Assembly (NCBI RefSeq): GCF_945862485.1
Contig: NZ_CAMAYF010000021.1
Coordinates: forward strand, 1-40,280
Direction of reading: 5' to 3'
Length of the DNA: 40,280 nucleotides
Source of the DNA: Sphingorhabdus sp. EL138
GTDB lineage: Bacteria; Pseudomonadota; Alphaproteobacteria; Sphingomonadales; Sphingomonadaceae
The notes below the pieces were generated by a model, which did no database searches, was not told the DNA's origin, and saw only the letters and a list, made by a program, of their open reading frames with translations. Below, one piece after another: positions 8,612 to 39,691 of the stretch (the first letter of the stretch is position 1; every line of letters begins with the position of its first letter). A program made the position numbers and the translations under genes.

Positions 8612-8629
8612 AATGAACCTTTTTTATTT

Positions 8630-8648
8630 ATTGCGAATGACTCGCAAT
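8630..8648. promoter_or_regulatory. Fur-box-like palindrome 1 upstream of TonB receptor
   Basis: Perfect 7-base arms ATTGCGA/TCGCAAT with a 5-base spacer (ATGAC), 18 bases upstream of the receptor start. The GCGAATGA core resembles Fur sites upstream of TonB receptors in proteobacteria. It probably overlaps the promoter or leader of the receptor gene. Confidence 0.55.
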
Positions 8649-8663
8649 TTTTTTGGTTCACTA

Positions 8664-8680
8664 TTGAGAATCGTTATCAT
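8664..8680. promoter_or_regulatory. Fur-box-like site 2 in the divergent promoter
   Basis: Contains inverted hexamers GAGAAT and GTTATC around one base (8666-8678), each differing by one base from the Fur consensus GATAAT/ATTATC. It lies in the AT-rich space between the receptor and the ArsC-family gene, so it could affect both directions. Confidence 0.6.
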
Positions 8681-8769
8681 ATGCAATTGAAAATTGTAAA
8701 AATCGTTGGATTGCTTTTGCATCTGGGCAATTGTTTGCACTATCAAGATTGGACTTAAGGAGGTTTTCA

Positions 8770-9120: not shown

Positions 9121-9147
9121 GCCACTCGCGGACGTCGGCAGGGCGCC

Positions 9148-10887: not shown

Positions 10888-10985
10888 AATGTGAGTGGGC
10901 AGCGGCCCGTTTCACTTTTGTTAGCTACTTACTTTAACAGCGGATAGCAGTTCAAATTTCGGCCCGACTGTGGCAAGAATAGGGC

Positions 10986-11519: not shown

Positions 11520-11521
11520 AT

Positions 11522-24188: not shown

Positions 24189-26531
24189 TTACCTTTTTAA
24201 AAACAGCTCGGCCATGGCATCAATAATCGCTGCAGCGTCGAGGCGATATGTGCTGTAAAGATCGGGCAAATCCCCCGTCTGACCGAAACGATCCATGCCA
24301 AGCGGACTGACGCGCATACCGTGCACGCCGCCCAGCCAAGACAAAGCGCCGGGCGAACCGTCAATCACCGTCACAATGCCGGCATTGGGCGCCAATATGG
24401 ATAACAAATCCTCGGCATGACTTGTTTGCGCGTCCTGATCTGTCCAGCGTGCAGCCTTGCTTGCCGACCATTCACGATGCAGTACATCGGGCGAGGTCAC
24501 ATTCAAAACACCTAAACTGGGAATATCATCCAGCATTTGATCATACGCGGCCAACACTTCAGGCGCGATGGCTCCTGTAAATATAATGGCCGCTTCAGCT
24601 CCTGCCGCTGGTCGACGCAACCAATATCCGCCCTTCAAGGCATCGGCCTCCCAAGACAAATCGGGACGCTCAACTTGCGCGATTTGACGCGTGCTCAGCC
24701 GCAAATAGACGGAGCCTCCCTCAGGCTTTTGCAAATATTCAAAAGCCCACCGCATGAGTAAAGCGACTTCATCGGCATAAGCAGGTTCAAAATAGGCAAG
24801 GCCCGGTTGCCCCATGCCAATCAACGGCGTGTTGATAGACTGATGCGCGCCACCCTCTGGTCCCAAAGTCAAACCGGACGGCGTTCCGACCAGCAGAAAA
24901 CGGGCATCTGAGTAGCAACCATAATTCAGCGCATCGAGGCCACGGGCAATGAACGGATCGTAAACCGTACCAACCGGAATAAGGCGCGTACCGAAATGCG
25001 GTGCAGCCAACCCAAGTGACGTCAGCAGCAAGAAGAAATTGTTTTCGGCAATTCCCAGTTCAATATGCTGCCCCGCCGCATGTGCCGCCCATTTCTGGGC
25101 GGATGGGATTTTAGCCTCGCGAAATATATCTGCCACGTCGGACCGGCGAAACAGCCCACGCTGGTTCACAAAACCGCCGAGATTGGTGGTCTGCGTCACA
25201 TCAGGCGCAGTGGTGACGATCCGGTCCGCTAGCTCTTCGGAAGACTTTGCAAGGTCAAGAAGGACATTGCCGAATGCCGCCTGGGTTGATTGTACATCAC
25301 CCGACGGAACTGCGAAGCGGCCGGGTACATGTATCTGCGGCGATACGGGTTCTAACGGTTTGGCGGCAAGAACGCTGTCCCCGATGAATTTTTTGAGCCG
25401 GGCTGCCATATTGCCGCCGAGGCCAGCAAATGGTTCCCACTCCTCGCCCGCTTCAATACCCATGGACATACGAAGCTGATCAATCTGACCGGGATTCATC
25501 ATCCCCGAATGATTGTCCTTATGCCCCGCCAACGGCAGACCATAACCCTTGACCGTATAGGCAATGAACAAGGTGGGCCGTTCATCATCGGCACTGTCAA
25601 AAGCATCCATCAAAGTTTCGATGCAATGCCCACCCAAATTGGTCATCAGCGCGGCCAGACCGTCGTCATCAAAACTATCGAGCAGTTTTTTCACATGCGG
25701 TTTGCCGCCAATATCTGCCATCAAACGCGCGCGCCAAGCTGCACCGCCCTGATAAGTGAGAACCGCAAATTCCGCATTGGGGCAATTTTCGATCCAGTCT
25801 TCCAGCGATTTCCCTCCGGGTCTTGCAAAAGCTGCTCGCTGTAACTTGCCATGCTTTAAGGTGATGACCCGCCATCCCGAAGTCTCGAAAATATCGTCAA
25901 AGCGCCGAAACATCCGGTCCGCCGTCGTGCTATCGAGCGATTGCCGGTTATAGTCGACCACCCACCAGCAGTTCCGAATGTCATGCTTATAGCCTTCAAT
26001 GAGGCATTCGTAGATATTGCCTTCATCCAGCTCCGCATCGCCCATCAGCGAAATCATCCGGCCTGCATTGGCCTCGTCTATCGATCCATGCGCGATCAAA
26101 TAGTCCTGAACCAGACTTGAAAAGGCTGTAATCGCCACACCCAAACCGACGGAACCGGTGGAGAAATCCACTGGAATTTTATCCTTTGTTCGCGATGGAT
26201 AGCTTTGCGCGCCGCCAAGACCACGAAATTGCTGCAATTGCTCTAGCGATTGATTGCCTAAGAGATAATGGATGGCTTGCAGCACTGGCCCTGCATGTGG
26301 CTTGACGGAAACCTTGTCATTCGGGCGCAGCGCATGAAAATACAGTGCCGCCATAATCGCCGTCATCGACGCGCAGCTTGCCTGATGCCCCCCGACCTTT
26401 AACCCGTCCCGCTTTGGCCGGATATGGTTGGCGTTATGCACGGTCCACGAGGCCAACCAACGCAGGCGCGCGTCGAGCGTTTCAATTGCTGCTATTTTCT
26501 CTTCACGCTTGTCAGCGACAATATTGGCCAT
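24189..26531 (-). CDS. 2-oxo-acid dehydrogenase E1, AceE/MdeB-like transketolase family
   Basis: Thiamine-diphosphate enzyme of 780 residues, shorter than AceE (about 887). The TPP motif is GDAELDEGNIYECL ending in NCWWVVDYNRQSLD, and the pyrimidine domain has HIELGIAENNFFLLLTSLG, GTVYDPFIARGLDALNYG and LGPEGGAHQS. It resembles homodimeric E1 components such as AceE and MdeB, the 2-oxobutyrate dehydrogenase E1 of the methionine gamma-lyase locus. No E2 or E3 gene is close. I use ATG 26531 (MANIVADKREEKIAAI); the longer frame from 26666 crosses the promoter of the divergent Lrp gene. The MdeB comparison fits the adjoining Lrp regulator, as in mdeRAB. Confidence 0.85.
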   Translation of the reverse strand: MANIVADKREEKIAAIETLDARLRWLASWTVHNANHIRPKRDGLKVGGHQASCASMTAIMAALYFHALRPNDKVSVKPHAGPVLQAIHYLLGNQSLEQLQQFRGLGGAQSYPSRTKDKIPVDFSTGSVGLGVAITAFSSLVQDYLIAHGSIDEANAGRMISLMGDAELDEGNIYECLIEGYKHDIRNCWWVVDYNRQSLDSTTADRMFRRFDDIFETSGWRVITLKHGKLQRAAFARPGGKSLEDWIENCPNAEFAVLTYQGGAAWRARLMADIGGKPHVKKLLDSFDDDGLAALMTNLGGHCIETLMDAFDSADDERPTLFIAYTVKGYGLPLAGHKDNHSGMMNPGQIDQLRMSMGIEAGEEWEPFAGLGGNMAARLKKFIGDSVLAAKPLEPVSPQIHVPGRFAVPSGDVQSTQAAFGNVLLDLAKSSEELADRIVTTAPDVTQTTNLGGFVNQRGLFRRSDVADIFREAKIPSAQKWAAHAAGQHIELGIAENNFFLLLTSLGLAAPHFGTRLIPVGTVYDPFIARGLDALNYGCYSDARFLLVGTPSGLTLGPEGGAHQSINTPLIGMGQPGLAYFEPAYADEVALLMRWAFEYLQKPEGGSVYLRLSTRQIAQVERPDLSWEADALKGGYWLRRPAAGAEAAIIFTGAIAPEVLAAYDQMLDDIPSLGVLNVTSPDVLHREWSASKAARWTDQDAQTSHAEDLLSILAPNAGIVTVIDGSPGALSWLGGVHGMRVSPLGMDRFGQTGDLPDLYSTYRLDAAAIIDAMAELFLKR

Positions 26532-26631
26532 GGCTGTTTTCCGCTTAAATCGAAGCAAGACTTTAGCCAGCACATCCCAGCATGTCCTTGCGTATCCTGA
26601 CGGTAAATGCCATATTATTTGAAAGATTATG

Positions 26632-26657
26632 CTTAAATTATAAAAATTAGGTTTAAG
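26632..26657. promoter_or_regulatory. Candidate Lrp-type operator
   Basis: Inverted arms CTTAAA and TTTAAG enclose a 14-base AT-rich spacer. The site sits immediately before the ATG of the Lrp-family gene and within the shared region with the E1-like gene, consistent with autoregulation and control of the divergent enzyme. Confidence 0.4.
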
Positions 26658-26659
26658 AT

Positions 26660-27142
26660 ATGCCAAAAAATAGCTTAGATGCCATTGACCGCAAGATTAT
26701 CGACTGCCTTCAATCAGATGGCCGAATGTCCAATCAGGAACTGTCTGAACGGGTCGGCTTATCGCCCAGCCCCTGTCTGCGCCGGGTACGCCAGTTGGAA
26801 GCCGATGGCACTATCACGCATTATGTCGCTTTGGTTGATCCTGATAAGGTCGGGCTTTCTGTCACAGCATTTGTCCGCGTGCGCCTTGATCAACAGGATG
26901 ATCGTCATTTGGAAGATTTTGAGACAGCCGTGTCCAGCTTTCCAGAGGTCATGGAATGTTATTTAATGACAGGCGAGGCGGATTATCAGTTGCGCATATT
27001 GGTCGCTTCCTTGACCCAATTTGAGGATTTTCTGCGCCATCGGCTGACCCGGGTGAAGGGTGTTGCCAATGTGACCACCAGCTTCGCGCTAAGGCCTGTT
27101 ATTTACAAGACGTCCGTTCCCACGTTGGAGCCGCGCATATGA
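26660..27142 (+). CDS. Lrp/AsnC family transcriptional regulator
   Basis: Regulator of 160 residues. The N-terminal helix-turn-helix reads LDAIDRKIIDCLQSDGRMSNQELSERVGLSPSPCLRRVRQLEADGTI, and the C-terminal RAM/ligand domain has ECYLMTGEADYQLRILVASLTQFEDFLRHRL. Such proteins sense amino acids. It is divergent from the E1-like gene and upstream of a class III aminotransferase. It therefore most likely controls the breakdown of an amino or 2-oxo acid, comparable with MdeR of Pseudomonas. Confidence 0.94.
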   Translation: MPKNSLDAIDRKIIDCLQSDGRMSNQELSERVGLSPSPCLRRVRQLEADGTITHYVALVDPDKVGLSVTAFVRVRLDQQDDRHLEDFETAVSSFPEVMECYLMTGEADYQLRILVASLTQFEDFLRHRLTRVKGVANVTTSFALRPVIYKTSVPTLEPRI

Positions 27143-27245: not shown

Positions 27246-27262
27246 GTTGGTGGAGTGACGTG

Positions 27263-28579
27263 ATGAAACTGGAAAATGACCCCCTTGCTGCATTTTGGAT
27301 GCCGTTTACGGCTAACCGCGCGTTTAAGACGACGCCGCGGCAGCTGAAATCTGCGAAGGACATGCATTATACCAGCGATGATGGACGGCAGATCCTTGAT
27401 GGAACCGCAGGGCTTTGGGCGGTCAATGCAGGCCACTGCCGCCCCACTATTGTCGAAGCGATTCAGACATGCGCCGCAGAGCTTGATTATGCGCCGCCAT
27501 TCCAACTGGGGCACCCACTGGCATTTGAACTGGCTTCGCGGCTCGCGAACCTCATGCCCGAAGGACTGGACCGCATATTTTTTACCAATTCGGGTTCAGA
27601 ATCGGTCGATACGGCTCTCAAGATTGCACTCGCTTATCAACGCGCGATTGGCCAAGGCACGCGTACCCGCCTCATCGGACGGGAACGCGGCTATAATGGC
27701 GTCGGCTTTGGCGGCATTTCGGTTGGCGGCATCGTCAACAACCGGCGTCAATTTGGCACATTGCTGACGGGTGTAGACCATCTGCCGCACACGCATAATC
27801 TTGAACATAATGCCTTTACGATAGGTAGGCCCGAATGGGGCGCGCATTTGGCCGATAATCTGGAGGCGATTGTCGCACTGCATGGCGCGGAGACCATTGC
27901 GGCGGTCATCGTCGAGCCCATGGCTGGCTCAACCGGCGTATTGGTGCCGCCCATCGGCTATCTCGAAAAATTGCGCGAGATTACGCGCAAACATGGCATC
28001 GTGCTTATCTTTGACGAAGTTATCACGGCATTTGGCCGTGTCGGCGGCACGACCGCTTCAGAAACCTTGGGCGTCACTCCCGACATCATTACGATGGCAA
28101 AGGGCCTTACAAATGCCGCGGTGCCGATGGGCGCTGTGGCCGTGAGCCGCCATATCCACGACGGCGTTGTCGAAGGCGGACCTGACGGCATCGAATTGTT
28201 CCACGGCTACACTTATTCCGGTCACCCCTTGGCCGCAGCTGCAGCCTTGGCAACGTTGGACCTTTACAAGTCAGAAGGTATTTTCGAACATGCAAGTTCG
28301 CTCCACGGCTATTGGCAAGATGCGGTACACAGCCTGAAGGGCAAAAAAAATGTCATCGACATCCGCAACATGGGCATTGTTGCGGCTATCGAACTTGCGC
28401 CGCATTCTGCCGGCGTTGGTAAGCGCGGGATGCAATTATTCCACAAATGCTTCGACAATGGCGTGCTCGTGCGTGCGACAGGCGACATTATTGCGCTGTC
28501 TCCGCCGCTAATTTTGCAAAAATCCCATATCGATGAAATTGTTGGACGGATCGGTGAATTGATAGAAACGGTCGACTAG
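27263..28579 (+). CDS. Class III aminotransferase, beta-alanine/omega-amino acid--pyruvate type
   Basis: PLP enzyme of 438 residues. It begins DPLAAFWMPFTANRAFK, the usual start of beta-alanine--pyruvate transaminases. LDGTAGLWAVNAGH, FTNSGSESVDTALKIALAY (phosphate contact), YNGVGFGGISVGG, VIVEPMAGSTGVLVPP, LIFDEVITAFGRVG (Asp contacting the cofactor) and ITMAKGLTNAAVPMGAV (the PLP Lys) complete the signature. It likely moves an amino group from beta-alanine or a related omega-amine to pyruvate. ATG 27263 has GGAG at 27252-27255. The Lrp-type gene is 120 bases upstream. Confidence 0.93.
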   Translation: MKLENDPLAAFWMPFTANRAFKTTPRQLKSAKDMHYTSDDGRQILDGTAGLWAVNAGHCRPTIVEAIQTCAAELDYAPPFQLGHPLAFELASRLANLMPEGLDRIFFTNSGSESVDTALKIALAYQRAIGQGTRTRLIGRERGYNGVGFGGISVGGIVNNRRQFGTLLTGVDHLPHTHNLEHNAFTIGRPEWGAHLADNLEAIVALHGAETIAAVIVEPMAGSTGVLVPPIGYLEKLREITRKHGIVLIFDEVITAFGRVGGTTASETLGVTPDIITMAKGLTNAAVPMGAVAVSRHIHDGVVEGGPDGIELFHGYTYSGHPLAAAAALATLDLYKSEGIFEHASSLHGYWQDAVHSLKGKKNVIDIRNMGIVAAIELAPHSAGVGKRGMQLFHKCFDNGVLVRATGDIIALSPPLILQKSHIDEIVGRIGELIETVD

Positions 28580-28590
28580 GCCGTGCACGC

Positions 28591-29661
28591 CTAAAGCGAC
28601 AGGACAATTTTCCCGACATGCTGCTTCGTCAAAAACGCTTCCTGCGCTTTGACGATTTCAGATAGGTCGTATGTCGCTGCCACCACTGGCCGGATTTCAC
28701 CACGTTCGATATAGGACACGAGGTTTGGGAACACGTCCGGTTCCAGCACGGTGCAACCAATCAGGCGCAAATCCTTAAGGTACAAAGTCCGTAAATCCAG
28801 ATCGACAATGGGCCCCGATATCGCCCCTGAAACGCCATAACGACCGCCGCGTTTTAGGACATTTAGAATGGCGCCGAACTGCGGGCCGCCAACAATATCT
28901 ACCGCAGCGTCGAAATATTCCTGTCCAAATAAGGCAGTAATATCCGAATCACGCGGAACCACCCGAGACGCGCCCAATGACTGAACCATTTCTGCCTTTG
29001 CGTCGGCGGCCATGGCGATCACCTCAGCACCACGCCTTTTGGCAAGTTGTACCGCGGCGGAGCCAACGCCGCCCGACGCGCCAGTGATCAACACGCGTTC
29101 CCCCGCCCGCAAATCAATACGCGTCAGGATATTTTCGGCGGTGCCATACGCACAGGGGAAGCTCGCCAGTTCAACGTCAGATAACGCAGAATGCACGCGA
29201 TGCGCATGGATGGACTGTACGCACGTATAATCCGCAAAGCCGCCATCGACTTCGGAACCAAAATAGAGAATGTCGAAGGTGCTAGCGCCACGAAAAACAG
29301 GTTCAACCAACACCCGTTCACCCATGCGCGCTGGGTCAACATTAGCGCCCACCGAGACAATCCGGCCACAGGCATCAGCGCCTTGAATACGCGGAAATTG
29401 AAAGGCCGCACCTGACCAGCCATCATCGCCAGCGCCGTCTATTCCAGATGCGGCGCCAGCGTCTGTGGCTTCCGCCACCGCCTTTGAATACCAACCGATG
29501 CGGGTGTTGATATCGGTATTATTGACACCAGCTGCGGCAACGCGGATCAAAACATCATTCGGTCCCGGTATAGGCACCGGAACGTCGTCCCGAACATCCA
29601 GCCTGTCATAGCCACCATGGCCGGTCAGCAAAACCGCGCGCATGTTGGCGGCTATTGTCAC
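28591..29661 (-). CDS. Zinc-independent alcohol dehydrogenase/quinone oxidoreductase-like (MDR family)
   Basis: MDR-superfamily reductase. The GroES-like half has DVLIRVAAAGVNNTDINTRIGWY, and the Rossmann half has AGERVLITGASGGVGSAAVQLAKRRGAEVIAMA. The catalytic-zinc Cys of classic alcohol dehydrogenases is absent at GVNNTD, as in quinone oxidoreductase-like members. GTG 29661 overlaps the stop of the Rieske gene (GTGA), and ATG 29643 is an alternative. It is the last gene of the four-gene operon. It might oxidise or reduce an intermediate of the amine pathway; the substrate is unknown. An insert rich in Gly/Ala/Asp (ATDAGAASGIDGAGDDGWSG) is unusual. Confidence 0.86.
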   Translation of the reverse strand: MTIAANMRAVLLTGHGGYDRLDVRDDVPVPIPGPNDVLIRVAAAGVNNTDINTRIGWYSKAVAEATDAGAASGIDGAGDDGWSGAAFQFPRIQGADACGRIVSVGANVDPARMGERVLVEPVFRGASTFDILYFGSEVDGGFADYTCVQSIHAHRVHSALSDVELASFPCAYGTAENILTRIDLRAGERVLITGASGGVGSAAVQLAKRRGAEVIAMAADAKAEMVQSLGASRVVPRDSDITALFGQEYFDAAVDIVGGPQFGAILNVLKRGGRYGVSGAISGPIVDLDLRTLYLKDLRLIGCTVLEPDVFPNLVSYIERGEIRPVVAATYDLSEIVKAQEAFLTKQHVGKIVLSL

Positions 29662-30908
29662 TCGGCGCGTTCCAGCCCGAATTGGTTGAGATACCACTTC
29701 TGGAAGTTAAGCACGCTGCCTTCCTGATCAGAATAGCGACCGGGACGATAGCGGCTGGACATGATACCTTCCTGATTGTTTTCGGTGATGACTTTGTCCT
29801 GCGTCGTTGTGGCATGATAGCCCCAGATCATCTTTTCAATGTCAACTTCCGCCTCGGTCGCGCGTCCATCGACCAGCCAGATCATCTCAACATCAGTGGC
29901 CAATGCGCCACGCGGGGTGAATTGGAACAGGATGGCAAAATGGTCATCCGCAACAATCTGGCTAAATGGACTGAAGCTGAGGTGCATCCGTCCGCCATCC
30001 GCTTTCGTACGCTTGCCCATCAGCGGCGCTGGCGCAGAACCATCTTGCGTCTCCGAGGCCCAGCCGTCTTTGTTCATGCGTTGCATCAGTAGGCGCAGAT
30101 GGCTGCTATCGGGTGCATCATCAATGGTACCAATGGGCCGGCCTGCGGCAGCGGCGCTTTCTTCCCAAGCCTTTAACTTTGGCGCGAAGTCAGCGATTGC
30201 GTCCGCTGGACCGGAACTTGGGCCAGCGCCTACGGCCACGATAGATTCAGATGCATGCATCGAACAGAATTCTGGATGCGATGGCACACAATGATAGCAT
30301 TCAAAGAAATTCTCGACGACGAGTTTCCAGTTGGCTGTCGTGGGGTAGCTGCCTGCATGCGCGATCCGCGCGTCGGCAAATCCATGATAATCGAGAATGG
30401 CACCCATGTCGCCGAAGGTAGCGTCAAAATCGACAGGCTCATCCTCGCTCATATTGATGAAGATCAGGCCGTGGAACACGCGGATATGGCATGCGAACAG
30501 GCTGTTTTCCGCCTTATCGAAATCCTCCGGCATCAGCCGCGCGGAAATCAGCCGCCCATCAAGGCCAAAGGTCCACGCGTGATAGGGGCACACCAGACGG
30601 GGTGCGTTGCCGCTTTCCGACTGGCAGATCGTCGATCCACGGTGGCGGCAAACGTTGAAGAACGCGCGGACGCTGTCGGCATTTTCACGAATGACGATGA
30701 TCTGCTCATTGCCAACCCGAAACAGGAAATAATCGCCCTTGTCGGGGATACGCGACACATGGCCGGCTAGGAGCCATTTCTGGCTAATGACTTGGTCGAA
30801 ATCCGCCTTGAACACCGCATCGCTGGTGTAAAATTCCTGATCAAAGCTGTATCCCATCCGCGTTTGCGCGGCGAGCCGTTGCATGGTGCCATGTGAAGTC
30901 TCGGTCAT
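29658..30908 (-). CDS. Rieske-type ring-hydroxylating oxygenase alpha subunit, betaine demethylase-like
   Basis: Oxygenase of 416 residues. The [2Fe-2S] Rieske centre is Cys87-x-His89 and Cys107-x2-His110 (VCRHRGSTIC, CPYHAWTF). The mononuclear iron site shows ENFFECYHCVPSHPEF with His206 and His211. These features and the overall length resemble glycine betaine monooxygenase GbcA and related quaternary-amine demethylases, which release a methyl as formaldehyde. No ferredoxin reductase (GbcB-like) is visible in the window. The start overlaps by one base the stop of the upstream flavoprotein gene (TGATG). Family very likely; betaine as substrate is inferred. Confidence 0.9.
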   Translation of the reverse strand: MTETSHGTMQRLAAQTRMGYSFDQEFYTSDAVFKADFDQVISQKWLLAGHVSRIPDKGDYFLFRVGNEQIIVIRENADSVRAFFNVCRHRGSTICQSESGNAPRLVCPYHAWTFGLDGRLISARLMPEDFDKAENSLFACHIRVFHGLIFINMSEDEPVDFDATFGDMGAILDYHGFADARIAHAGSYPTTANWKLVVENFFECYHCVPSHPEFCSMHASESIVAVGAGPSSGPADAIADFAPKLKAWEESAAAAGRPIGTIDDAPDSSHLRLLMQRMNKDGWASETQDGSAPAPLMGKRTKADGGRMHLSFSPFSQIVADDHFAILFQFTPRGALATDVEMIWLVDGRATEAEVDIEKMIWGYHATTTQDKVITENNQEGIMSSRYRPGRYSDQEGSVLNFQKWYLNQFGLERAE

Positions 30909-33352
30909 CAGATTTTGATCCGTGCATTTGAAGGGTCATAAAGGGGCTTGAGCGACGCGGTCACTGGGAAACGCACACCCGCAATTTCAATTTCATAATC
31001 ATCCGCGCCAATCGGGCCGACAACGCCGCCATCTGCCGCGGTCACATAACCAAGGCCACAGGATGCGCCGAGCGTATGGGCGTACATGCCCGAGCGGATA
31101 TATCCGGCGATGCGATCCCCCTGCCAGATCGGTTCATTATGATAGAGCATGGGATCGGGCGATTTCAGCAGAAATTGAACGAGCTTTTGCTTCAATCCCT
31201 CTTCTTTCTGCTTCACCAGTGCCTCTTGGCCGATAAAGCCGCCGGGCTTGTCCATCTTCACGGCAAAGCCGAGGCCAGCTTCCAAGGGCGTATCTTCATC
31301 GGTAATGTCATGGCCCCAATGGCGATAGGCCTTTTCCACGCGCAGTGCGTTGAGCGCGTGATAGCCGCAATGCTTGAGGCCAAAGGCCGCGCCTGCTGCG
31401 ACAATCTCATCATAGACGCCCGTCATGAATTCGGTCGGGATATAGAGTTCCCAGCCCAATTCGCCGACATAGGTAATGCGCGAGGCACGCACGATGGCAT
31501 AGCCCAGCTCAATTTCCTGACTCGTCGCAAAGGGAAAGGCCTCATGCGACAAATCATTGGGGCAAATCGATTGGAGCAGCGCACGCGCATTTGGTCCCAT
31601 GATCGAGATCACGCCCATCGCAGAGGACACATTGGTCAAAATGGCATGGGCACCCTCTGGGATATGCCGTAACAGCCAGTTGAAATCCTTCGTTTCTGTC
31701 TCGGCCCCAGTGACAATGAGATAGGCCGTCTGCGACAGACGGGTGACGGTCAAATCCGCTTCGATGCCGCCCTTATCATTCAACCATTGGGTATAGATCA
31801 ACTTGCCTGGCGCCACATCAACATCATTGGCGCAGACGCGGTTCAGAACAGCACAGGCATCGCGCCCTTCCAGCCGGAATTTGGCAAAGGAGCTTTGGTC
31901 AAACAGGCCCACGGCTTCGCGCACCGCTTTGCACTCCTCGGCATTGGCCTCAAACCAATTTTGGCGGCCATAGCTATATTCATATTTGGGCGTGCTGCCC
32001 GGTGCGCCATACCAATTGGGGCGTTCCCAGCCAAAAGCCTCGCCATGGCAAGCCCCGGCCGCAACCAATCGATCATGAATGGCGGAACGGCGGACGCCGC
32101 GCGCGGTTTCATATTGCTTGAAGGGATAATGCGTCGCGTAGAGCAGCCCAAGGCTCTCGGTTACGCGCTCGCGCAGATATTTGCGGTTGATCTGGAACGG
32201 CATGTTGCGCCGAATATCGACCGTCCACAGGTCCGCAGGCGGAATGCCGTCACGGATCCAGTCGGCCATCACCTTGCCAACGCCGCCTGCGGATTGCAGG
32301 CCGATAGAGTTTAGACCAGCAGCGACAAAGCAACCCTTCAGCTCGGCACTTTCGCCCAGATGATAGCGCACATCCGGCGTGAAGCTCTCCGGCCCGCAGA
32401 AGAATTTCTGGATACCTGCTTTTTCAAGCGCAGGCACGCGGCGCATGGCATCCATCAACAAGGGCTCGAAATGCTCAAAGCTGCCGGCGATTTCATCAAA
32501 GCAGAAATCTTCGGAAATGCCGTCCATGCCCCATGGTCGCGCATTGGGCTCAAACGCTCCGACGAGCAGCTTGCCTGCATCATATTTATAATAGCCGCAA
32601 TAATCATAGTCGCGCAGCACAGGGAGCGTATTGTCGATCCCCTCTACGCCTTCGAACAGAACATAATAATGTTCGCACGCATGCAAGGGTGCGGCCACGC
32701 CAATGCTCGCCGCCAGATCGCGCGTCCACATGCCGCCGCAGATCACGACATAATCGGCATCAATCGATCCATCATCGGTATCGACACCCGTCACGCGCTC
32801 CCCATTATGGCGGATTTTGGTGACCTTGGTATTTTCAAATATTTTGGCGCCGCCGGTGCGTGCGCCCTTCGCCAGCGCCTGCGTAATATCGACCGCATTG
32901 GCATAGCCATCGCTGGGGATATGAATGCCGCCGACCACGTCATCGACATTTACGATATAGGCGAGTTCTTTGATCTCTTGCGGCGTCACAACATTTACGG
33001 GCAGGTCAAACACCTTTGCCATCGAAGCGCTGCGTTTCAGTTCTTCAAACCGCTCCGCATTGGTCGCCATCGAAATGGAGCCGCACTGGCGATAGCCTGT
33101 GGCTTGGCCGGTTTCAGCTTCTAGCCCGCGATAAAGTTCGCCCGTATATTTAGCGAGCTTGGTCATGTTGATCGACGGACGCAACTGACCCACCAGACCG
33201 GCCGCGTGCCAGGTCGTCCCGCTGGTCAGTTGCTTGCGCTCCAGCAAAACAACATCGTCCCAGCCAATCTTGGTCAGGTGATAGGCAATCGAGCAGCCAA
33301 TAACGCCACCACCGACGATTACGACTTTCGCCTTTTTGGGGAGTTCAGCCAC
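30908..33352 (-). CDS. FAD-dependent oxidoreductase fused to GcvT domain (DMGDH/SARDH-like), second gene
   Basis: Protein of 814 residues in the dimethylglycine/sarcosine dehydrogenase family. The FAD domain has VVIVGGGVIGCSIAYHL and LTSGTTWHAAGL, where His49 is the site of covalent FAD attachment in the family. A central FAO_M region follows, then aminomethyltransferase (GcvT) halves from about residue 440 (NWFEANAEECKAVREAVGLFD) to the C-terminus (SASCGLGYV-like ASCGLGYVTA). The GcvT part usually passes the methylene to tetrahydrofolate. It is four bases downstream of its paralogue and overlaps the Rieske gene, so it is in the operon. Sarcosine or dimethylglycine oxidation is inferred. Confidence 0.92.
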   Translation of the reverse strand: MAELPKKAKVVIVGGGVIGCSIAYHLTKIGWDDVVLLERKQLTSGTTWHAAGLVGQLRPSINMTKLAKYTGELYRGLEAETGQATGYRQCGSISMATNAERFEELKRSASMAKVFDLPVNVVTPQEIKELAYIVNVDDVVGGIHIPSDGYANAVDITQALAKGARTGGAKIFENTKVTKIRHNGERVTGVDTDDGSIDADYVVICGGMWTRDLAASIGVAAPLHACEHYYVLFEGVEGIDNTLPVLRDYDYCGYYKYDAGKLLVGAFEPNARPWGMDGISEDFCFDEIAGSFEHFEPLLMDAMRRVPALEKAGIQKFFCGPESFTPDVRYHLGESAELKGCFVAAGLNSIGLQSAGGVGKVMADWIRDGIPPADLWTVDIRRNMPFQINRKYLRERVTESLGLLYATHYPFKQYETARGVRRSAIHDRLVAAGACHGEAFGWERPNWYGAPGSTPKYEYSYGRQNWFEANAEECKAVREAVGLFDQSSFAKFRLEGRDACAVLNRVCANDVDVAPGKLIYTQWLNDKGGIEADLTVTRLSQTAYLIVTGAETETKDFNWLLRHIPEGAHAILTNVSSAMGVISIMGPNARALLQSICPNDLSHEAFPFATSQEIELGYAIVRASRITYVGELGWELYIPTEFMTGVYDEIVAAGAAFGLKHCGYHALNALRVEKAYRHWGHDITDEDTPLEAGLGFAVKMDKPGGFIGQEALVKQKEEGLKQKLVQFLLKSPDPMLYHNEPIWQGDRIAGYIRSGMYAHTLGASCGLGYVTAADGGVVGPIGADDYEIEIAGVRFPVTASLKPLYDPSNARIKI

Positions 33353-33356
33353 TAGA

Positions 33357-35774
33357 TTACACCTTCATTTTTGCGTTATCGGCATCATAGGCCGGATGCT
33401 CCAGCACCGTTCCAACCCGCCGTTCGCACTGCAGCATGATATCAAAACGTGATCCTGGCGCGGCATTTTCAAGCGGTACGCACGCAAAGAAAAGGCTCTT
33501 ACCCACACGATGCCCATAACCACCTGACGTTGTCAGACCGATGCATTGGTCGCCGATCAAACATGGCTCCGCGCCGCGTACGTCAACATTGGACGCATCT
33601 ACTTCACCATAGACAATGCGGAAACGGTCTGGCGCATCCATCGTTGCCTGCTTGCCGACAAAGTCATCCTTGTTGAAATTGATGAAGCGCGGCATGTCCG
33701 CCTCAATCATCGTCAATTCATTGGTGAGTTCGGAGCCCCAAGCCTTATAGCCTTTTTCCACCCGCATCGTGTTTGCGGCGTAAAGGCCATAATTGACGAT
33801 GCCATATTCCTGCCCCGCATCCCAAACGGCATCATACAACGCGGCAAGATCGTCCATTGCTGGATGCAGCTCCCATCCAAGCTCACCCGCATAAGACACC
33901 CGAAGCGCGCGCATTTTTATGCCTGCGATGGTGATTTCCTGACCGCTTAACCAGCGGAAAACTTCGTTCGTTAAGTCGGCATTGGTGAGTTTTGCCAAAA
34001 CATCGCGCGAACGCGGGCCATTCATCACCAATACGCCCAAGTCCATCGTCAAATTGCGAATGGTGACATCCTCATGCGGCAATTTGCTTTGGATCAGCAA
34101 GTCCCAATCGCGTTGCTCCGCGGCTGCTGCCGACAGGCAGTAAAAATGATCATCGGCAAAGCGCGTGACCGTCATTTCGCCGTAAATGCGACCTTGAATC
34201 GACAAGGGGTGCACCAAGCCGATACCGCCCAATTTCTTTGGCATGCGGTTGGCGCAAATACGGTTGAGGAAAGCTTCTGCATCGGGGCCGCTTACGTCAT
34301 ATTTGGCAAAGCCGGACAGATCGAGCACGCCAACGCCTTCAGCTACAGCCTTCACTTCGGCGGCGACCGCGTCGAAGCTATTAGTGCGTTGGTAGCCGCC
34401 TTGCTCCTCCGCCCCATCAAGCGCGAAATATTTGGGTCGTTCCCAACCATAAGTTTCGCCATAGACTGCTCCCGCGGAGAGCAATTTGCCATATAATGCG
34501 CTGGTCTTTTGCGGACGGCCGTCGGGCTCTTCCTCGCCGGGTAGCCGGGTCGTAAACGTCATCCGATAATCCAGGAAGACCTTGTCGCGGCTATAATCTT
34601 CATCGGCATAAGGGCCATAACGACGCGGGTCGAATTCAGTCATATTGATGTCGGCATCACCAAACACCATCCATTGCGCCATATATTTTCCGGCACCGCC
34701 GCCTTGCGCGATTCCAAAGCTGGTGCCACAGCAATGCCAGAAATTCTTGAGGCCTACCGCTGGCCCCAATAATGGTCCGCCATCTGGTGTATGTGGAATA
34801 GCGCCATTGACAAAGCGCCTTAGGCCAACCTGACCAAATATCGGCATCCGCTCAATCGCGCGTTCAAGCCATGGGGCAATGCGCTCCAGATCTTCGGGAA
34901 ACAGCTCGCTAGTGGAATCCCACTCAGGGTGTCCGCCGCGTGGTGCCCACGCCTCGACCAAACCTGTGTTTTCGTAAACACCTATCAGGCCGCTTTTCTG
35001 TTCCTGCCGGAAATATCCCGACACGTGCGGGCAGCGCATAACGGGGATTTCTTCTTCGCGATCCTTAAACGCAGGAATGGGATCAGTAACGACATAATGA
35101 TGCTCCATATTCGTCACCGGAATATCAATCCCAGCCATTTGCGCGATCTGCCGCGCATAGCAGCCGGCCGCATTAACGACGATTTCGGCGCGAACAGTGC
35201 CCTTTTCGGTCTCCACATCCCATTCGCCAGACGGCAATTGGGTCAGGCCCGTCACACGGTTTTTGCGGACAATCTTTGCCCCCATATTTTTCGCACCAAT
35301 GGCAAGCGCATTGCAAATACCCGATGGATCAGCATGTCCGTCTTCGGTGGTACGTGCGCCAGCAATAACCCCGTCCAGCGTCATAAACGGATTATGGCGC
35401 AGGATTTCCTCTGGCGGGATGATTTCCATATCAAAGCCAATGATTTTGGAAAAACCTTGTATATAGCGCATCCACGCCAACTCGCGCTCGTTCGTCGCAA
35501 GGCGAATTCCGCCCGATGTATGCCAGCTGACATATTGCCCCGTCAGCCCTTCCAGCTTGGGATAGAGCTGATTGCTATAAGCATGCATTTTAGCGAGGTT
35601 GTAGCTGCCCGTAATGTTTGGACATTGCCCGGCGGCGTGCCAAGTCGAGCCGGACGTCAGCTCATCCTTTTCAATCAACAAACTATCTGTCCAGCCAAGC
35701 TCGGCAAGATGGTAAAGCAACGAAGCTCCCATTATGCCGCCGCCAATGATGACAACCCGTGCCGATGTTTGCAT
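33357..35774 (-). CDS. FAD-dependent oxidoreductase fused to GcvT domain (DMGDH/SARDH-like), first gene
   Basis: Paralogue of 805 residues, same architecture. VVIIGGGIMGASLLYHL binds FAD and LTSGSTWHAAGQ gives His46 as the likely covalent site. MEHHYVVTDPI and LRRFVNGAIPHTPDGGPLLGP are family blocks. The GcvT portion has LDLSGFAKYDVSGPDAEAFLNRICANRMPK, SYAGELGWELH and MRVEKGYKAWGSELT. ATG 35774 follows AAGGAG on the minus strand; the longer frame from 35837 runs into the divergent promoter region. It is first gene of the operon, so it may act first after the Rieske enzyme or independently. Substrate difference from the second gene is not visible. Confidence 0.92.
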   Translation of the reverse strand: MQTSARVVIIGGGIMGASLLYHLAELGWTDSLLIEKDELTSGSTWHAAGQCPNITGSYNLAKMHAYSNQLYPKLEGLTGQYVSWHTSGGIRLATNERELAWMRYIQGFSKIIGFDMEIIPPEEILRHNPFMTLDGVIAGARTTEDGHADPSGICNALAIGAKNMGAKIVRKNRVTGLTQLPSGEWDVETEKGTVRAEIVVNAAGCYARQIAQMAGIDIPVTNMEHHYVVTDPIPAFKDREEEIPVMRCPHVSGYFRQEQKSGLIGVYENTGLVEAWAPRGGHPEWDSTSELFPEDLERIAPWLERAIERMPIFGQVGLRRFVNGAIPHTPDGGPLLGPAVGLKNFWHCCGTSFGIAQGGGAGKYMAQWMVFGDADINMTEFDPRRYGPYADEDYSRDKVFLDYRMTFTTRLPGEEEPDGRPQKTSALYGKLLSAGAVYGETYGWERPKYFALDGAEEQGGYQRTNSFDAVAAEVKAVAEGVGVLDLSGFAKYDVSGPDAEAFLNRICANRMPKKLGGIGLVHPLSIQGRIYGEMTVTRFADDHFYCLSAAAAEQRDWDLLIQSKLPHEDVTIRNLTMDLGVLVMNGPRSRDVLAKLTNADLTNEVFRWLSGQEITIAGIKMRALRVSYAGELGWELHPAMDDLAALYDAVWDAGQEYGIVNYGLYAANTMRVEKGYKAWGSELTNELTMIEADMPRFINFNKDDFVGKQATMDAPDRFRIVYGEVDASNVDVRGAEPCLIGDQCIGLTTSGGYGHRVGKSLFFACVPLENAAPGSRFDIMLQCERRVGTVLEHPAYDADNAKMKV

Positions 35775-35936
35775 GACAGCCGTGCTCCTTAAGGCATTAA
35801 TTCCAGCGAACCTTAGGGCGGGTTTAAGGTCAGGCACAAATGGGGAATATGACGGGATCGGTTAAAAAAATTTTTGGATCATAGCCGTCACTGTCTGTAA
35901 GGGCAGTGGTGTGAAATTATCTTGTAAAGGTCAGCT
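35775..35936. promoter_or_regulatory. Divergent intergenic region between amine operon and SDR gene
   Basis: 162 bases separate the two start codons. It contains a run AAAAAAATTTTT and, near the SDR gene, CACTG/CAGTG inverted arms around TCTGTAAGGG (35889-35908). AAAGG precedes the SDR ATG. No clear -35/-10 pair could be fixed. A regulator site is plausible because this is the only promoter for the operon on the minus strand. Confidence 0.35.
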
Positions 35937-36701
35937 ATGCGGGTTGTGTTGATTACAGGTGCGGCACAAGGGGTTGGCTTTGCCACCGCGAAGATGTTTG
36001 CTGGGATGGGATATCATGTCGTCCTGACAGATGTGCAGCCGTTGGATGCGCAAATCGCAACGCTATCGGCACTTGGGGGTAGCGTATCCGCTTTGTCCGG
36101 TGACATTTCCTCAGAGGCTTTTGTGACTGAACTGGCCGACAAAGTGGCGCGCGATCACACGGCAGTTGATGTCCTTGTGAATAATGCCGGGATCAGCATG
36201 ATATGCCCCGCCGAAGACACAAGTCTCGACCAATGGCAGCGCGTCATGAACATCAATCTGACCGGACCGTTTTTATTGTGCCGGGAATTTGGCAAGCAAA
36301 TGCTGGCGCGTGGGCAGGGCAATATTGTCAATGTCGCTTCCATTGCAGGCTTACACGGCGTAATCGACCGTTCGGCTTATAACGCCTCAAAACATGGGTT
36401 GATCGGATTAACACGCACGCTTGCCGCCGAATGGGGCAATCGCGGCGTGCGTGTAAATGCTATCTGCCCCGGCTGGATCAAAACCGAGATGGACGAGGCG
36501 GACCAAGGTTCGGGCGCCTATTCCGACGCAGACATTATCAACCGCGTGCCCATGGGCCGCTTTGCAAAACCCGAGGATGTTGCGCGCGCCATTGCGTTTC
36601 TGGCACATGAAGACAGCTTCATAAACGGCGTTAGCCTGCCTGTGGACGGCGGGTGGGTTGCCGACGCCAGCTGGGACGCACTTCGTTTAAAAAAACGGTG
36701 A
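35937..36701 (+). CDS. Short-chain dehydrogenase/reductase
   Basis: Classical SDR of 254 residues. TGAAQGVG (residues 7-14) binds the cofactor, NNAG follows at 82-85, and the catalytic Ser135, Tyr148 and Lys152 (VASIAG, YNASK) are present. The acidic residue at the end of the second strand (VLTDVQ) points to NAD. The end PVDGGWVAD is typical. It is divergent from the amine operon and probably oxidises an alcohol intermediate. Substrate unknown. Confidence 0.93.
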   Translation: MRVVLITGAAQGVGFATAKMFAGMGYHVVLTDVQPLDAQIATLSALGGSVSALSGDISSEAFVTELADKVARDHTAVDVLVNNAGISMICPAEDTSLDQWQRVMNINLTGPFLLCREFGKQMLARGQGNIVNVASIAGLHGVIDRSAYNASKHGLIGLTRTLAAEWGNRGVRVNAICPGWIKTEMDEADQGSGAYSDADIINRVPMGRFAKPEDVARAIAFLAHEDSFINGVSLPVDGGWVADASWDALRLKKR

Positions 36702-37666: not shown

Positions 37667-37691
37667 CGGCCAAATTTTTCAATTGTGGCCG
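37667..37691. promoter_or_regulatory. Inverted repeat CGGCCA/TGGCCG upstream of dehydrogenase gene
   Basis: Perfect 6-base arms separated by 13 AT-rich bases, 69 bases before ATG 37760. A candidate regulator site, perhaps for the LysR-type protein encoded nearby; unproven. Confidence 0.3.
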
Positions 37692-37759
37692 CGCATCGAC
37701 GGCGCTCTAACTTTTTCAATCGGCGGGTAACGCTTCTTGAAAAAATATTGGGTGTAATC

Positions 37760-38713
37760 ATGAAAATCGGATTTATCGGGCTTGGCAATGTCGGCGGAAA
37801 ACTGGCGGGAAGCCTGATCCGTAACGGACATGATGTGACTGTCCGTGATCTTGATGACACTTTAGTCGCCGAATATGTGGCACGCGGCGCGAAGGCCGCT
37901 GCATCGCCCAAGTTATTGGGAGAGAATGTTGACCTGATCGTCACCTGCCTGCCCTCCCCTGCGGCCAGCGCAGCCGTGGCCGAAGGCCCAGATGGCTTTT
38001 TGCAAATCATGCGACCCGGCCAAGTCTGGCTGGAAATGAGCACGACCGACTATAGCGAAATCATCCGCTTGGGTGCGCTGGTCGAAGCGCGCGGCGCCAT
38101 GTTTATGGAGTGCCCGGTTTCGGGTGGATGCCATCGTGCCGATACCGGCAATATCGCGATTTTCGCTGGTGGACCGCGCGCGGCCTTTGAATTTGTTCTG
38201 CCTGTTCTGACTACAATGGGCCGTCGCATTCTGCATACGGGCGATCTTGGCACAGCCTCACAGTTGAAGGTGATGACAAATTATCTGTGCACGGTGCATC
38301 TGGTTGCGCTCGCTGAAGCCTTGACCACGTGTAAGGCCATTGGGCTGGATATGAACACCACTTATGAGGCGATCAAAATTTCATCAGGCAACAGCTTTGT
38401 CCATGAAACGGAAAGCCAAGTTATCCTGAACGGCAGCCGGGATATCAACTTCACCATGGATTTGGTGTCAAAGGATATTGGCCTGTTTGACAAGATTGCA
38501 CAGGAAGCGGGTGTTCCGGTGGAAATGTCCCCGCTGATCGTGCGTCTCTTCAAAGAAGCAGAGGCCAATTACGGGTCGCGCGAATTTTCGCCTAACATCA
38601 TCCGTCGTTATGAAGAGCCGCTGGGCCTTAAGGTTCTTGGCACAGGCTTTCCTGACCAAATGGTCGATGATGAGCCCGAAGAGCGCGGGTACGAAGTCGT
38701 TCCCAAACGCTAA
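37760..38713 (+). CDS. 3-hydroxyisobutyrate dehydrogenase-like NAD(P)-dependent oxidoreductase
   Basis: Beta-hydroxyacid dehydrogenase of 317 residues. The N-terminal Rossmann motif is GFIGLGNVGGKLAGSLIRNGHDVTV, followed by the CPVSGG substrate loop and the QLKVMTNYL segment with the catalytic Lys. Relatives act on 3-hydroxyisobutyrate, tartronate semialdehyde or 3-hydroxypropionate. I took ATG 37760 since it precedes the Rossmann strand directly; the frame extends 25 codons upstream. It faces the convergent LysR gene across a 9-base gap. It could process a carbon skeleton from the amine or beta-alanine pathways. Confidence 0.9.
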   Translation: MKIGFIGLGNVGGKLAGSLIRNGHDVTVRDLDDTLVAEYVARGAKAAASPKLLGENVDLIVTCLPSPAASAAVAEGPDGFLQIMRPGQVWLEMSTTDYSEIIRLGALVEARGAMFMECPVSGGCHRADTGNIAIFAGGPRAAFEFVLPVLTTMGRRILHTGDLGTASQLKVMTNYLCTVHLVALAEALTTCKAIGLDMNTTYEAIKISSGNSFVHETESQVILNGSRDINFTMDLVSKDIGLFDKIAQEAGVPVEMSPLIVRLFKEAEANYGSREFSPNIIRRYEEPLGLKVLGTGFPDQMVDDEPEERGYEVVPKR

Positions 38714-38722
38714 GGTCGCAAC

Positions 38723-39652
38723 TTAGCCAGCCTTAGTCGACTGGCTATCGGCGACATTTTTGGCCACCCAATCCATGAAAGTCCGGATTCTGGGATTTTC
38801 GCGCATATCCTTGCGGCAGATTAATCCCCATGCGCCTGGACATACCGCCTTATGCGCGATGGGCTGCACCAGCCGCCCTGCTGCCATATCCTGATCCACA
38901 AACGGGCCGTTGACCAGGGCAATTCCTTCGCCATTCAGCGCCATTTCAAGTGCAACCGCCAAGGTATCCACCATCAGATACGGCACGGATGGCTCAAACT
39001 CGGCACCGACGGACGCAAACCAAGTCTCCCAATTTTGTACCTCCGTGTAAATGGCAACAAGAGGTTTGGTCATCAATTGTTGGGGAGCGGGATTCTGTCC
39101 CATGGCTTCTGCCACCTCAGGACTGCATACGGGGAACAACGCATATTCATACAGCGGCACCCAATGAAACTTGGCCGGGTCCGGCTCGATAGCGCAATAG
39201 ACCAGTCCGACATCAGCATGCACATCATCAAATTCCCATTCAACCGCGCACGTATTGAGCGTCAGTTTTATTTCGGGATGGTCGGCCAGAAATTGGGGCA
39301 CGCGCCGTGCAAGCCAGCGAATGGACGCGGTCACATAGGTTTGTACCCGAAGCGGCTTATCAAGCGCATTGCGATGCACTTCTTCGACGCCCTCGAGCAG
39401 GGATTCAAATGCGGCGCGGACATAAGGGTATAGCACCTTGCCTTCTTCGGTCGAGACAATGTGGCGTCCTTCTTGAACGAACAAAGTAACACCAAGGGCA
39501 TCTTCGATAAGTTGAACCTGGTGACTGACCGCAGGATGCGTCAGGCAAAGTTCATCAGCCGCGTCGCGAATACTTTGATGACGGGTCGCGGCTTCAAAGC
39601 CTTTAAGCGCCTTTAATGGCGGCAATTGCTTAAGATCAATCTTCGGATGCAT
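38723..39652 (-). CDS. LysR family transcriptional regulator, GcvA-like
   Basis: Regulator of 309 residues. The winged helix is seen in LPPLKALKGFEAATRHQSIRDAADELCLTHPAVSHQVQLIEDALGVTLF, the form typical of GcvA, activator of glycine cleavage. A periplasmic-binding-protein-like effector domain follows. ATG 39652 has GGAG six bases upstream on the minus strand. The GcvA-like character and the glycine/one-carbon chemistry of nearby genes make it a candidate regulator of the locus; that is inference. Confidence 0.92.
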   Translation of the reverse strand: MHPKIDLKQLPPLKALKGFEAATRHQSIRDAADELCLTHPAVSHQVQLIEDALGVTLFVQEGRHIVSTEEGKVLYPYVRAAFESLLEGVEEVHRNALDKPLRVQTYVTASIRWLARRVPQFLADHPEIKLTLNTCAVEWEFDDVHADVGLVYCAIEPDPAKFHWVPLYEYALFPVCSPEVAEAMGQNPAPQQLMTKPLVAIYTEVQNWETWFASVGAEFEPSVPYLMVDTLAVALEMALNGEGIALVNGPFVDQDMAAGRLVQPIAHKAVCPGAWGLICRKDMRENPRIRTFMDWVAKNVADSQSTKAG

Positions 39653-39678
39653 CGCCACTCCTTCCCCGGATTCGCGCA

Positions 39679-39691
39679 ATTCTGATAGAAT
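39679..39691. promoter_or_regulatory. Palindrome upstream of the LysR gene
   Basis: ATTCTGATAGAAT has perfect 5-base arms and a 3-base centre, 26 bases before the LysR start. It is a plausible LysR autoregulatory site, or part of the 3' end of the upstream GMC gene transcript. Confidence 0.35.

Follow-up and report, generated by a model that had tools for sequence, protein, structure and literature searches.

The genome of Sphingorhabdus sp. EL138, a draft of 2.18 Mb that is 96.6% complete, carries on contig NZ_CAMAYF010000021.1 (C21; the whole stretch of 40,280 nucleotides analysed here, referred to as the window) four adjoining genes for two FAD-GcvT dehydrogenases (DH1 and DH2), a Rieske oxygenase and a reductase/dehydrogenase of the MDR family, and the question arises which compound is converted by these enzymes. 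A preliminary description of the locus had suggested three successive demethylations. This is still the best reading, as a Group V Rieske oxygenase and two old dehydrogenase lineages recur together as a trio of genes: judged from its sequence, the operon probably encodes a pathway that removes the N-methyl groups of a trimethylated quaternary-ammonium acid in three oxidative steps. The Rieske oxygenase would hydroxylate one N-methyl group, as expected from the chemistry of its family, releasing formaldehyde and a dimethylamine product. DH1 would then oxidise one methyl group of the dimethylamine on covalently bound FAD, with its GcvT domain handing the carbon to tetrahydrofolate, and DH2 would act likewise on the monomethylamine to leave a primary amino acid. 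DH1 is thus proposed as a tertiary-amine (dimethyl to monomethyl) and DH2 as a secondary-amine (monomethyl to primary) demethylase. Two oxidoreductases encoded nearby, one of the GMC family and one resembling 3-hydroxyisobutyrate dehydrogenase (HIBDH), may act on the carbon skeleton either before the methyl groups are removed or afterwards, in line with their association with the trio, and MDR and the omega-aminotransferase AptA would be accessory.

Direct reading of the window confirmed the described layout of four genes on one strand (28591-35774) with its junctions. The minus-strand open reading frames (ORFs) span 33357-35837, 30908-33352, 29658-30908 and 28591-29697, with internal start codons at ATG 35774 in the DH1 frame and GTG 29661 in the MDR frame. 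Between the DH1 stop codon (TAA, 33359-33357) and the GTG start of DH2 at 33352 lies a gap of four bases, DH2 and the Rieske gene overlap in TGATG (30910-30906), and the Rieske gene and MDR overlap in GTGA (29661-29658). Because AAGGAG, which resembles a ribosome-binding site, is located just 5' of ATG 35774, this start looks better for DH1 than GTG 35837. A promoter and terminator scan stayed under the shuffled mean and gave no usable signal. The same four-gene order, named early as something to look for, is retained in other genomes of the genus, and orthologs of the Rieske protein with at least 85% identity occur in 27 of the 45 genus genomes compared; the operon is therefore not a chance arrangement.

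DH1 and DH2 both combine the Pfam domains DAO, FAO_M, GCV_T and GCV_T_C in one chain and align with dimethylglycine dehydrogenase (DMGDH) across nearly their full length. The best matches of DH1 in the PDB were DMGDH (4p9s, 598 bits) and mitochondrial DMGDH (5l46, 578 bits), and DH2 matched DMGDH 4p9s with 514 bits and dimethylglycine oxidase (DMGO, 1pj5) with 402 bits. The histidine of the WHAAG motif, as well as a histidine and a tyrosine aligned with His225 and Tyr259 of DMGO, are present in both proteins, and the acidic residue aligned with Asp552 of DMGO is glutamate in DH1, as in DMGDH 4p9s, and aspartate in DH2. We take these positions to be the FAD-linking histidine, the catalytic histidine and tyrosine, and the acidic residue of the folate site. 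Against the NCBIfam models of heterotetrameric sarcosine oxidase, neither protein reached the cut-off for soxA (1164 bits; DH1 180, DH2 170) or for soxB (529 bits; DH1 76, DH2 81). The early assignment of both as single-chain proteins resembling DMGDH or sarcosine dehydrogenase (SARDH) therefore holds over the full length and with the expected residues.

A tree of 52 dehydrogenase rows contained a single branch (100/100) with all 26 DH1 rows on one side and all 26 DH2 rows on the other. Consequently, the pair does not stem from a recent duplication but consists of two old lineages, which therefore probably act on two substrates. The places of five rows on long branches (L161, L164, L165 twice and L166) are less sure. 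At the folate-site position, DH2 has aspartate in all 26 rows, and DH1 has glutamate in 23 of 26 and aspartate in the other three. The FAD-linking histidine is replaced by asparagine in the Ensifer copy of DH2 (L104, 5089-7536) and is otherwise constant among the 52 rows.

The Rieske protein contains the Pfam domains Rieske and Ring_hydroxyl_A. Its best NCBIfam match, GbcA (NF058607), scored 281.7 bits and thus remained below the cut-off of 670 bits, followed by HcaE with 110 bits. Among PDB entries, 3n0q ranked first (249 bits), then Stc2 (3vca and 4qup; 230 bits for Stc2) and then CntA (142 bits); we take 3n0q to be the TM1040 protein and 3vca and 4qup to be Stc2, names that are consistent with loci L145 and L144. 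All ligands of both metal sites could be aligned, namely the cysteine and histidine pairs C87, H89, C107 and H110 and the 2-His-1-carboxylate residues H206, H211 and D371. Near the iron site, the protein has the bridging Glu203 and a Cys204-x-x-Cys207 motif (CxxC); such a motif is reported for some Group V members in PMC10952381 (papers are cited here by PubMed Central number). At the position of Tyr203 of CntA, the window protein carries Phe201. According to PMC7948474, this signature site splits Group Va (aromatic; CntA, choline monooxygenase, OxyBAC) from Group Vb (asparagine; GbcA, Stc2), so that the window protein shows the aromatic Va state and not the asparagine of GbcA.

In a tree of 62 Rieske proteins, a 53-row clade (99/99) grouped the window protein with GbcA and Stc2, and six other Rieske proteins of the same genome fell outside. 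Within it, GbcA-type and Stc2-type proteins, two proteins from contig C20 of the same genome and the second copy of locus L052 formed a 14-row subclade (100/100). Ten other rows, among them the window protein, form a clade of their own (100/100) comprising sphingomonad sequences and sequences from gammaproteobacterial or unassigned proteobacterial metagenome-assembled genomes (MAGs), and phenylalanine is present in all of them. The Rieske proteins of Sphingorhabdus profundilacus and S. contaminans are 91 and 90% identical to that of the window; names in this genus suggest lake bacteria. Rhizobial-type proteins, which carry tyrosine, constitute another clade. YeaW of E. coli was placed outside the 53-row clade on a long branch; its place is unsure, and the tree program issued a warning that long branches meet. 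By residues and tree, the window protein belongs to the Group V quaternary-ammonium oxygenases, in a phenylalanine-signature lineage apart from GbcA and Stc2, and both lines of evidence rule out an aromatic dioxygenase, the grouping that would have spoken against the preliminary description. Two tandem phenylalanine-type Rieske genes each were seen in a Rhodospirillaceae MAG (L062, 9941-15448) and in genome G301 (L039, 1477-4044), and in L062 two further Rieske genes without CxxC lie behind the tandem pair.

Recurrence of the trio was examined at the best 80 of 554 confirmed Rieske loci, on which all trio counts rest. DH1, DH2 and Rieske genes occurred together at 28 of these, comprising six sphingomonad loci, four gammaproteobacterial or unassigned proteobacterial ones and 18 of rhizobial type, one of the latter from Fertoeibacter (Paracoccaceae). 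Locus L049, which is truncated, shows only part of DH2 and the Rieske gene, and L105 has DH1 and the Rieske gene only. DH2 is 75-76% identical to gammaproteobacterial and 54-56% to rhizobial-type copies; for DH1, identity to rhizobial-type copies is 35-38%. When the top few candidates per genome were scored in broader samples, matches at E 1e-90 or better were obtained in seven of 385 genomes of the class, the source genome included, with a best identity of 43% outside the genus, and in one of 299 genomes of the phylum, which was the source genome. Close relatives thus appear to be uncommon beyond sphingomonads and some gammaproteobacteria, as far as these samples suggest. Two gammaproteobacterial-type trio loci (L053, 11270-13126; L055, 11225-13147) adjoin a dipeptide/tripeptide-permease-like gene, and in L054 (324-3973) the trio adjoins a Xaa-Pro-dipeptidase-like gene, FTCD_C and formate-tetrahydrofolate ligase (FTHFS).

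Elsewhere, the dehydrogenases are accompanied by a different first enzyme. On a plasmid of Alisedimentitalea scapharcae, a gene for a methyltransferase of the trimethylamine (MttB) family is followed by DH1-like and DH2-like genes, and on a Roseovarius indicus plasmid MttB precedes a DH1 that is the nearest row outside the trio loci (55%). DH1 also lies near MttB on Shinella and Mesorhizobium plasmids, and MttB is found at four rhizobial-type trio loci (L083, L095, L100 and L104). An Agrobacterium plasmid carries EtfBA-DH1-DH2 with ABC transporter genes and purU, and Sphingobium has DH2 without DH1 in the arrangement DH2-EtfBA-PurU-FolD. This pattern of MttB, Etf and folate genes is as expected of a module for demethylation of quaternary, tertiary and secondary amines, and the first enzyme of the module, as read from gene order, is exchangeable between a Rieske oxygenase and an MttB-family methyltransferase. 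In Ruegeria pomeroyi, MtgB, a member of the MttB family, is proposed to be the component of MtgBCD that takes the methyl group from glycine betaine, and MtgC and MtgD were shown to be essential (PMC12478193). Two further plasmids carry a Rieske gene of another kind, with the motif NYCESYHL, which has the glutamate but no CxxC, and about 26% identity to YeaW: in Leisingera (L173, 5056-10213) it is accompanied by aldehyde dehydrogenase and an MDR gene 60% identical to that of the window, and in Phaeobacter (L162, 4017-9427) a similar Rieske gene and aldehyde dehydrogenase are followed by a DH1-like gene. As the Leisingera Rieske protein lacks CxxC, the link between this operon and the window by way of MDR is weak.

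Coordinates of the operon genes and of neighbouring genes in the window
Feature	Position	Strand	Basis and remarks
DH1, single-chain FAD-GcvT dehydrogenase, DMGDH-like	33357..35774	-	Pfam, PDB matches, residues, tree
DH2, single-chain FAD-GcvT dehydrogenase	30908..33352	-	Pfam, PDB matches, residues, tree
Group V Rieske oxygenase, alpha subunit	29658..30908	-	Residues, tree, NF058607
MDR-family reductase/dehydrogenase, accessory	28591..29661	-	Pfam ADH_N and ADH_zinc_N; PDB 4j6f
SDR oxidoreductase, divergent to DH1	35937..36701	+	Pfam; adjoins DH1 in some, not all, related loci
3-Hydroxyisobutyrate-dehydrogenase-like enzyme (HIBDH)	37685..38713	+	Pfam; PDB 3cky
LysR/GcvA-like protein, candidate regulator	38723..39679	-	Pfam; GcvA subfamily 228 bits, below cut-off of 288
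GMC oxidoreductase, C-terminal part, cut by contig end	39722..40264	-	Pfam
AptA-type omega-aminotransferase, convergent with MDR	27260..28579	+	NF052567; membership in operon unproven

The neighbouring genes differ in how closely they follow the trio within the genus. HIBDH and the close ortholog of GMC (at least 83% identity) occur in the same 29 of the 45 genomes, including all 27 with the Rieske gene; GMC would reach 36 genomes if matches of 41-54% were counted. In 16 of the 18 Rieske-negative genomes neither HIBDH nor the close GMC ortholog was found, and in the remaining two (G014 and G707) the contigs stop at SDR or HIBDH, before the operon. MDR is present in 26 genomes, in one of them (G710) as a fragment, and in 25 of the 27 Rieske-positive ones, and AptA in 33. 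Genome G710 carries a scar (L174, contig C480, 1473-3044) made up of an SDR remnant, the last 69 residues of the Rieske protein and a frame-broken MDR, followed by an intact AptA; no match to DH1 or DH2 was found in this stretch of 4.4 kb. In G008, AptA and part of MDR are kept; in this genome as in G710, no Rieske ortholog, HIBDH or close GMC ortholog was found. The presence pattern and these remnants indicate that the Rieske, dehydrogenase, HIBDH and GMC genes go as a unit and that AptA does not; in G701, AptA and the operon are located on different contigs. AptA as an essential step is weakened by its retention without the operon in G710 and G008 and by its separate location in G701.

The closest PDB relative of MDR is a putative alcohol dehydrogenase (4j6f, 279 bits). 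The preliminary description had found no place for this fourth enzyme in its scheme, and we agree: MDR is accessory, being found at four of the 28 trio loci and at none of the gammaproteobacterial or rhizobial-type ones. HIBDH reached no NCBIfam cut-off and matched best 2-hydroxymethyl glutarate dehydrogenase (3cky, 159 bits). For GMC, a chloramphenicol-inactivating oxidoreductase (435 bits) ranked before choline dehydrogenase (9lq0, 361 bits), and the copy at locus L050 is choline-dehydrogenase-like in NCBIfam, below the cut-offs; a 404-residue piece of the same family is located on contig C34 of the source genome. AptA scored 714 bits with NF052567, above the cut-off of 500, and 417 bits with beta-alanine--pyruvate transaminase in the PDB. 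The association of HIBDH with such enzymes is repeated in Rhizobium setariae (L095), where HIBDH (46%) occurs with GMC, and in L074, where it occurs with aldehyde dehydrogenase. DH1 and MttB of Shinella (L163) are adjoined by a HIBDH of lower identity (28%) and by GMC (45%). Among five plasmid regions with HIBDH relatives, two (L168 and L169) contain GMC (50%), aldehyde dehydrogenase and a mandelate-racemase-family gene, two (L170 and L171) lack them, and the annotation of the fifth (L172) is too sparse to tell. An 825-residue ORF of the window (24189-26666) has relatives of 87-97% identity in five other genus genomes and gave no Pfam match at 1e-15.

Electron supply to the Rieske oxygenase was approached by a scan with three reductase queries (GbcB-like, VanB-like and YeaX). 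None of the 28 trio loci had such a reductase nearby, as opposed to 12 of 12 GbcA-type controls, and GbcB- or YeaX-like reductases also lie near the Stc2, 3N0Q and YeaW loci. At the 52 other scanned loci a reductase was recognised five times, so that none was found at 75 of the best 80. The scan was also negative at L173 and at L029 and L030, the loci of the GbcA-like proteins of the source genome itself, and the lack is therefore not special to the trio. It likewise missed the BenC-like and FNR proteins of this genome (L182 and L183), and reductases of these types may exist near other trio loci. Direct search of the draft genome, which may lack genes, for PF00175 (NAD_binding_1) yielded two proteins on contigs other than that of the operon, one BenC-like (176 bits, below the cut-off) beside an anthranilate-dioxygenase-like gene, the other resembling ferredoxin-NADP reductase. 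MDR was rejected as the Rieske reductase, as it has no match to an iron-sulfur or FNR-type domain in Pfam and is not found at most trio loci.

The source genome contains three Group V Rieske genes in total. Contig C20 carries a GbcA-like Rieske gene (409 bits, with asparagine), a gene for a DMGDH-like protein, and SoxB and SoxA above their cut-offs. The preliminary description had assumed that the window operon replaces the multisubunit DgcAB and SoxBDAG systems; with these genes in the same genome, this assumption does not hold. The operon is rather an addition, perhaps for another substrate, and ordinary glycine betaine use is more likely to fall to the C20 cluster. Its presence argues that the substrate of the window operon is another or an overlapping one. 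The second GbcA-like Rieske gene (430 bits, alanine at the signature site) lies on the same contig (L030, G000:C20:20001-40000, 6786-13110) with SoxB above its cut-off and a SoxA-like gene, beside genes for a Cys/Met-metabolism PLP enzyme, a Pyr_redox_2 protein and a DAO protein; together they make up a further cluster of quaternary-amine type with no assigned pathway.

As to the substrate, glycine betaine derived from choline or carnitine and a longer-chain compound such as beta-alanine betaine, gamma-butyrobetaine or a carnitine-like betaine appear equally possible, each somewhat short of an even chance, and a cyclic betaine with one or two methyl groups is improbable. A second glycine betaine route, in which choline (via GMC) or carnitine is converted to glycine betaine, dimethylglycine, sarcosine and finally glycine, can be put forward tentatively. 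It agrees with the better conservation of DH2 than of DH1, which would be expected if the substrate is a common one like sarcosine, with the choline-dehydrogenase-like character of GMC, and with carnitine-dehydrogenase-like and BKACE-like genes adjoining seven of the 18 rhizobial-type trio loci; at L070, the one locus tested, the NCBIfam model for carnitine 3-dehydrogenase scored 605 bits (cut-off 592). Single-gene DMGDH and SARDH predicted in SAR11 and named in R. pomeroyi (PMC3160333, PMC4744692) point in the same direction. However, the C20 cluster may already provide such a route, the window Rieske protein lies outside the GbcA/Stc2 clade, DH1 diverges strongly from its rhizobial-type copies and the best match of GMC is the chloramphenicol-inactivating enzyme. 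With a longer or hydroxylated betaine (beta-alanine betaine, gamma-butyrobetaine or an algal hydroxy-betaine), which we likewise regard as a tentative option, AptA would transaminate the primary amine, and GMC, the HIBDH-like enzyme and aldehyde dehydrogenases would oxidise the skeleton. This would give a role to the AptA equivalog beside the operon and to HIBDH and GMC, whose gain and loss in the genus parallel those of the trio. Aldehyde dehydrogenase adjoins HIBDH in Novosphingobium (L051) and Fertoeibacter (L074), in L060 a related Rieske gene has a class-III aminotransferase gene immediately upstream, and one of the two HIBDH-relative plasmid regions with the gene set described above carries a betaine ABC transporter. 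AptA may nevertheless be a bystander, since it outlasts the operon. At L130, the aminotransferase close to the related Rieske gene is hemL-like and not of omega type, and outside the sphingomonads HIBDH and GMC seldom accompany the trio.

Alternatively, the Rieske enzyme might cleave a C-N bond or hydroxylate, as CntA and choline monooxygenase do, and DH1 and DH2 might act on other N-methyl amines. Phe201 would fit this, but the sequence is nearer to 3n0q and Stc2 than to CntA, the gene is repeatedly linked with two demethylase-type proteins, and MttB-family genes occupy the same place elsewhere, which together render this explanation unlikely. Stachydrine has two N-methyl groups and homarine one, so that two dehydrogenases are one too many for either substrate. 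Although one of the closest solved structures is that of Stc2, this enzyme and the 3N0Q protein belong to a different 100/100 clade with asparagine, and their loci have an adjoining GbcB-like reductase; catabolism of stachydrine or homarine is hence very unlikely. Of the substrates named in the preliminary description, these two have lost ground and carnitine keeps its place owing to the rhizobial-type loci. Among the matches listed in our literature search, which did not include preprints, none dealt by title with a homarine catabolic operon or with betaine-lipid headgroup catabolism, and those on Sphingorhabdus and choline were of no use. More speculatively, and with a rather low probability, the Rieske protein might represent a third Group V lineage, with an aromatic phenylalanine or tyrosine signature in a Stc2-like sequence, that demethylates an unassigned betaine, such as a freshwater-algal one that is hydroxylated or of the beta-amino type, and does so without a dedicated reductase. 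Electrons would then come from a housekeeping ferredoxin reductase or from DH1 and DH2, so that the later demethylations help to pay for the first.

Three-step N-demethylation is, as stated above, the probable function of the operon, and several points weigh against it. Oxidative demethylation is assigned to clade Vb in section 6 of PMC7948474, and as phenylalanine is the Va state, the first reaction could differ. No Rieske reductase is encoded in the operon, and the genome holds only the two PF00175 proteins. HIBDH was found at two and GMC at one of the 18 rhizobial-type trio loci, and neither at the four gammaproteobacterial ones. Several dehydrogenase rows outside the trio loci, Roseovarius included, have long branches, and DH2-like genes also occur near phosphonate genes and alone among unrelated genes, which speaks against a single meaning. 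The genomes and loci counted are related to each other, and the counts are thus not independent. Finally, the sequences directly show gene content and junctions, the families and residue states of the proteins, their recurrence and co-occurrence and the lack of a nearby reductase of the types queried; we infer N-demethylation, the order Rieske, DH1, DH2, tetrahydrofolate transfer and every substrate, with folate binding and the order taken from homology alone.

The operon can be compared with several known systems. In Pseudomonas and Vibrio natriegens, glycine betaine is degraded via GbcAB, DgcAB and SoxBDAG (PMC12093977). As proposed for the window, a Rieske enzyme takes the first methyl group there and flavin/folate enzymes the next two; in contrast, the window protein is separated from GbcA by clade and by its phenylalanine and has no GbcB-like neighbour, steps two and three would be performed by single-chain enzymes, and the SoxB and SoxA genes are located elsewhere in the genome. 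For SAR11, BHMT followed by DMGDH and SARDH, one gene each (SAR11_1253 and SAR11_1221), is predicted for glycine betaine (PMC3160333), and SPO3400 and SPO3396 of R. pomeroyi are named dimethylglycine and sarcosine dehydrogenase (PMC4744692). In these systems, as proposed for the window, a DMGDH-type and a SARDH-type enzyme each take one step, and the methyl carbons are predicted to enter tetrahydrofolate (PMC3160333, PMC4744692, PMC12478193), whereas the first step by BHMT or MtgBCD is a methyl transfer and not a Rieske oxygenation. The bridging glutamate and CxxC are common to the window protein, Stc2 (3vca) and CntA (6y8j), which differ at the signature site (phenylalanine, asparagine and tyrosine, respectively), and FAD-GcvT genes were not found in the stretches around Stc2 and E. 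coli YeaW (L144 and L146). With DMGDH (4p9s, 5l46) and dimethylglycine oxidase (1pj5), DH1 and DH2 share the single-chain architecture and the conserved histidine and tyrosine positions, but the window has two diverged copies in tandem. A Group V Rieske gene together with both single-chain dehydrogenases in one operon is described by none of the matches listed from the open-licence literature of PubMed Central, judged by titles and the beginnings of abstracts. The enzyme types themselves are known.

If this interpretation is correct, the trio would constitute a compact, recurring three-gene module for the full demethylation of a trimethylated amine, in which the first enzyme can be exchanged. 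It would also draw attention to a set of Group V Rieske proteins that many of the plasmid records listed name 'aromatic ring-hydroxylating dioxygenase' and that lack a recognised reductase nearby at 75 of the 80 loci scanned. The presence of three Group V Rieske genes in a genome of 2.2 Mb suggests that the bacteria carrying them profit from methylated nitrogen compounds as food.

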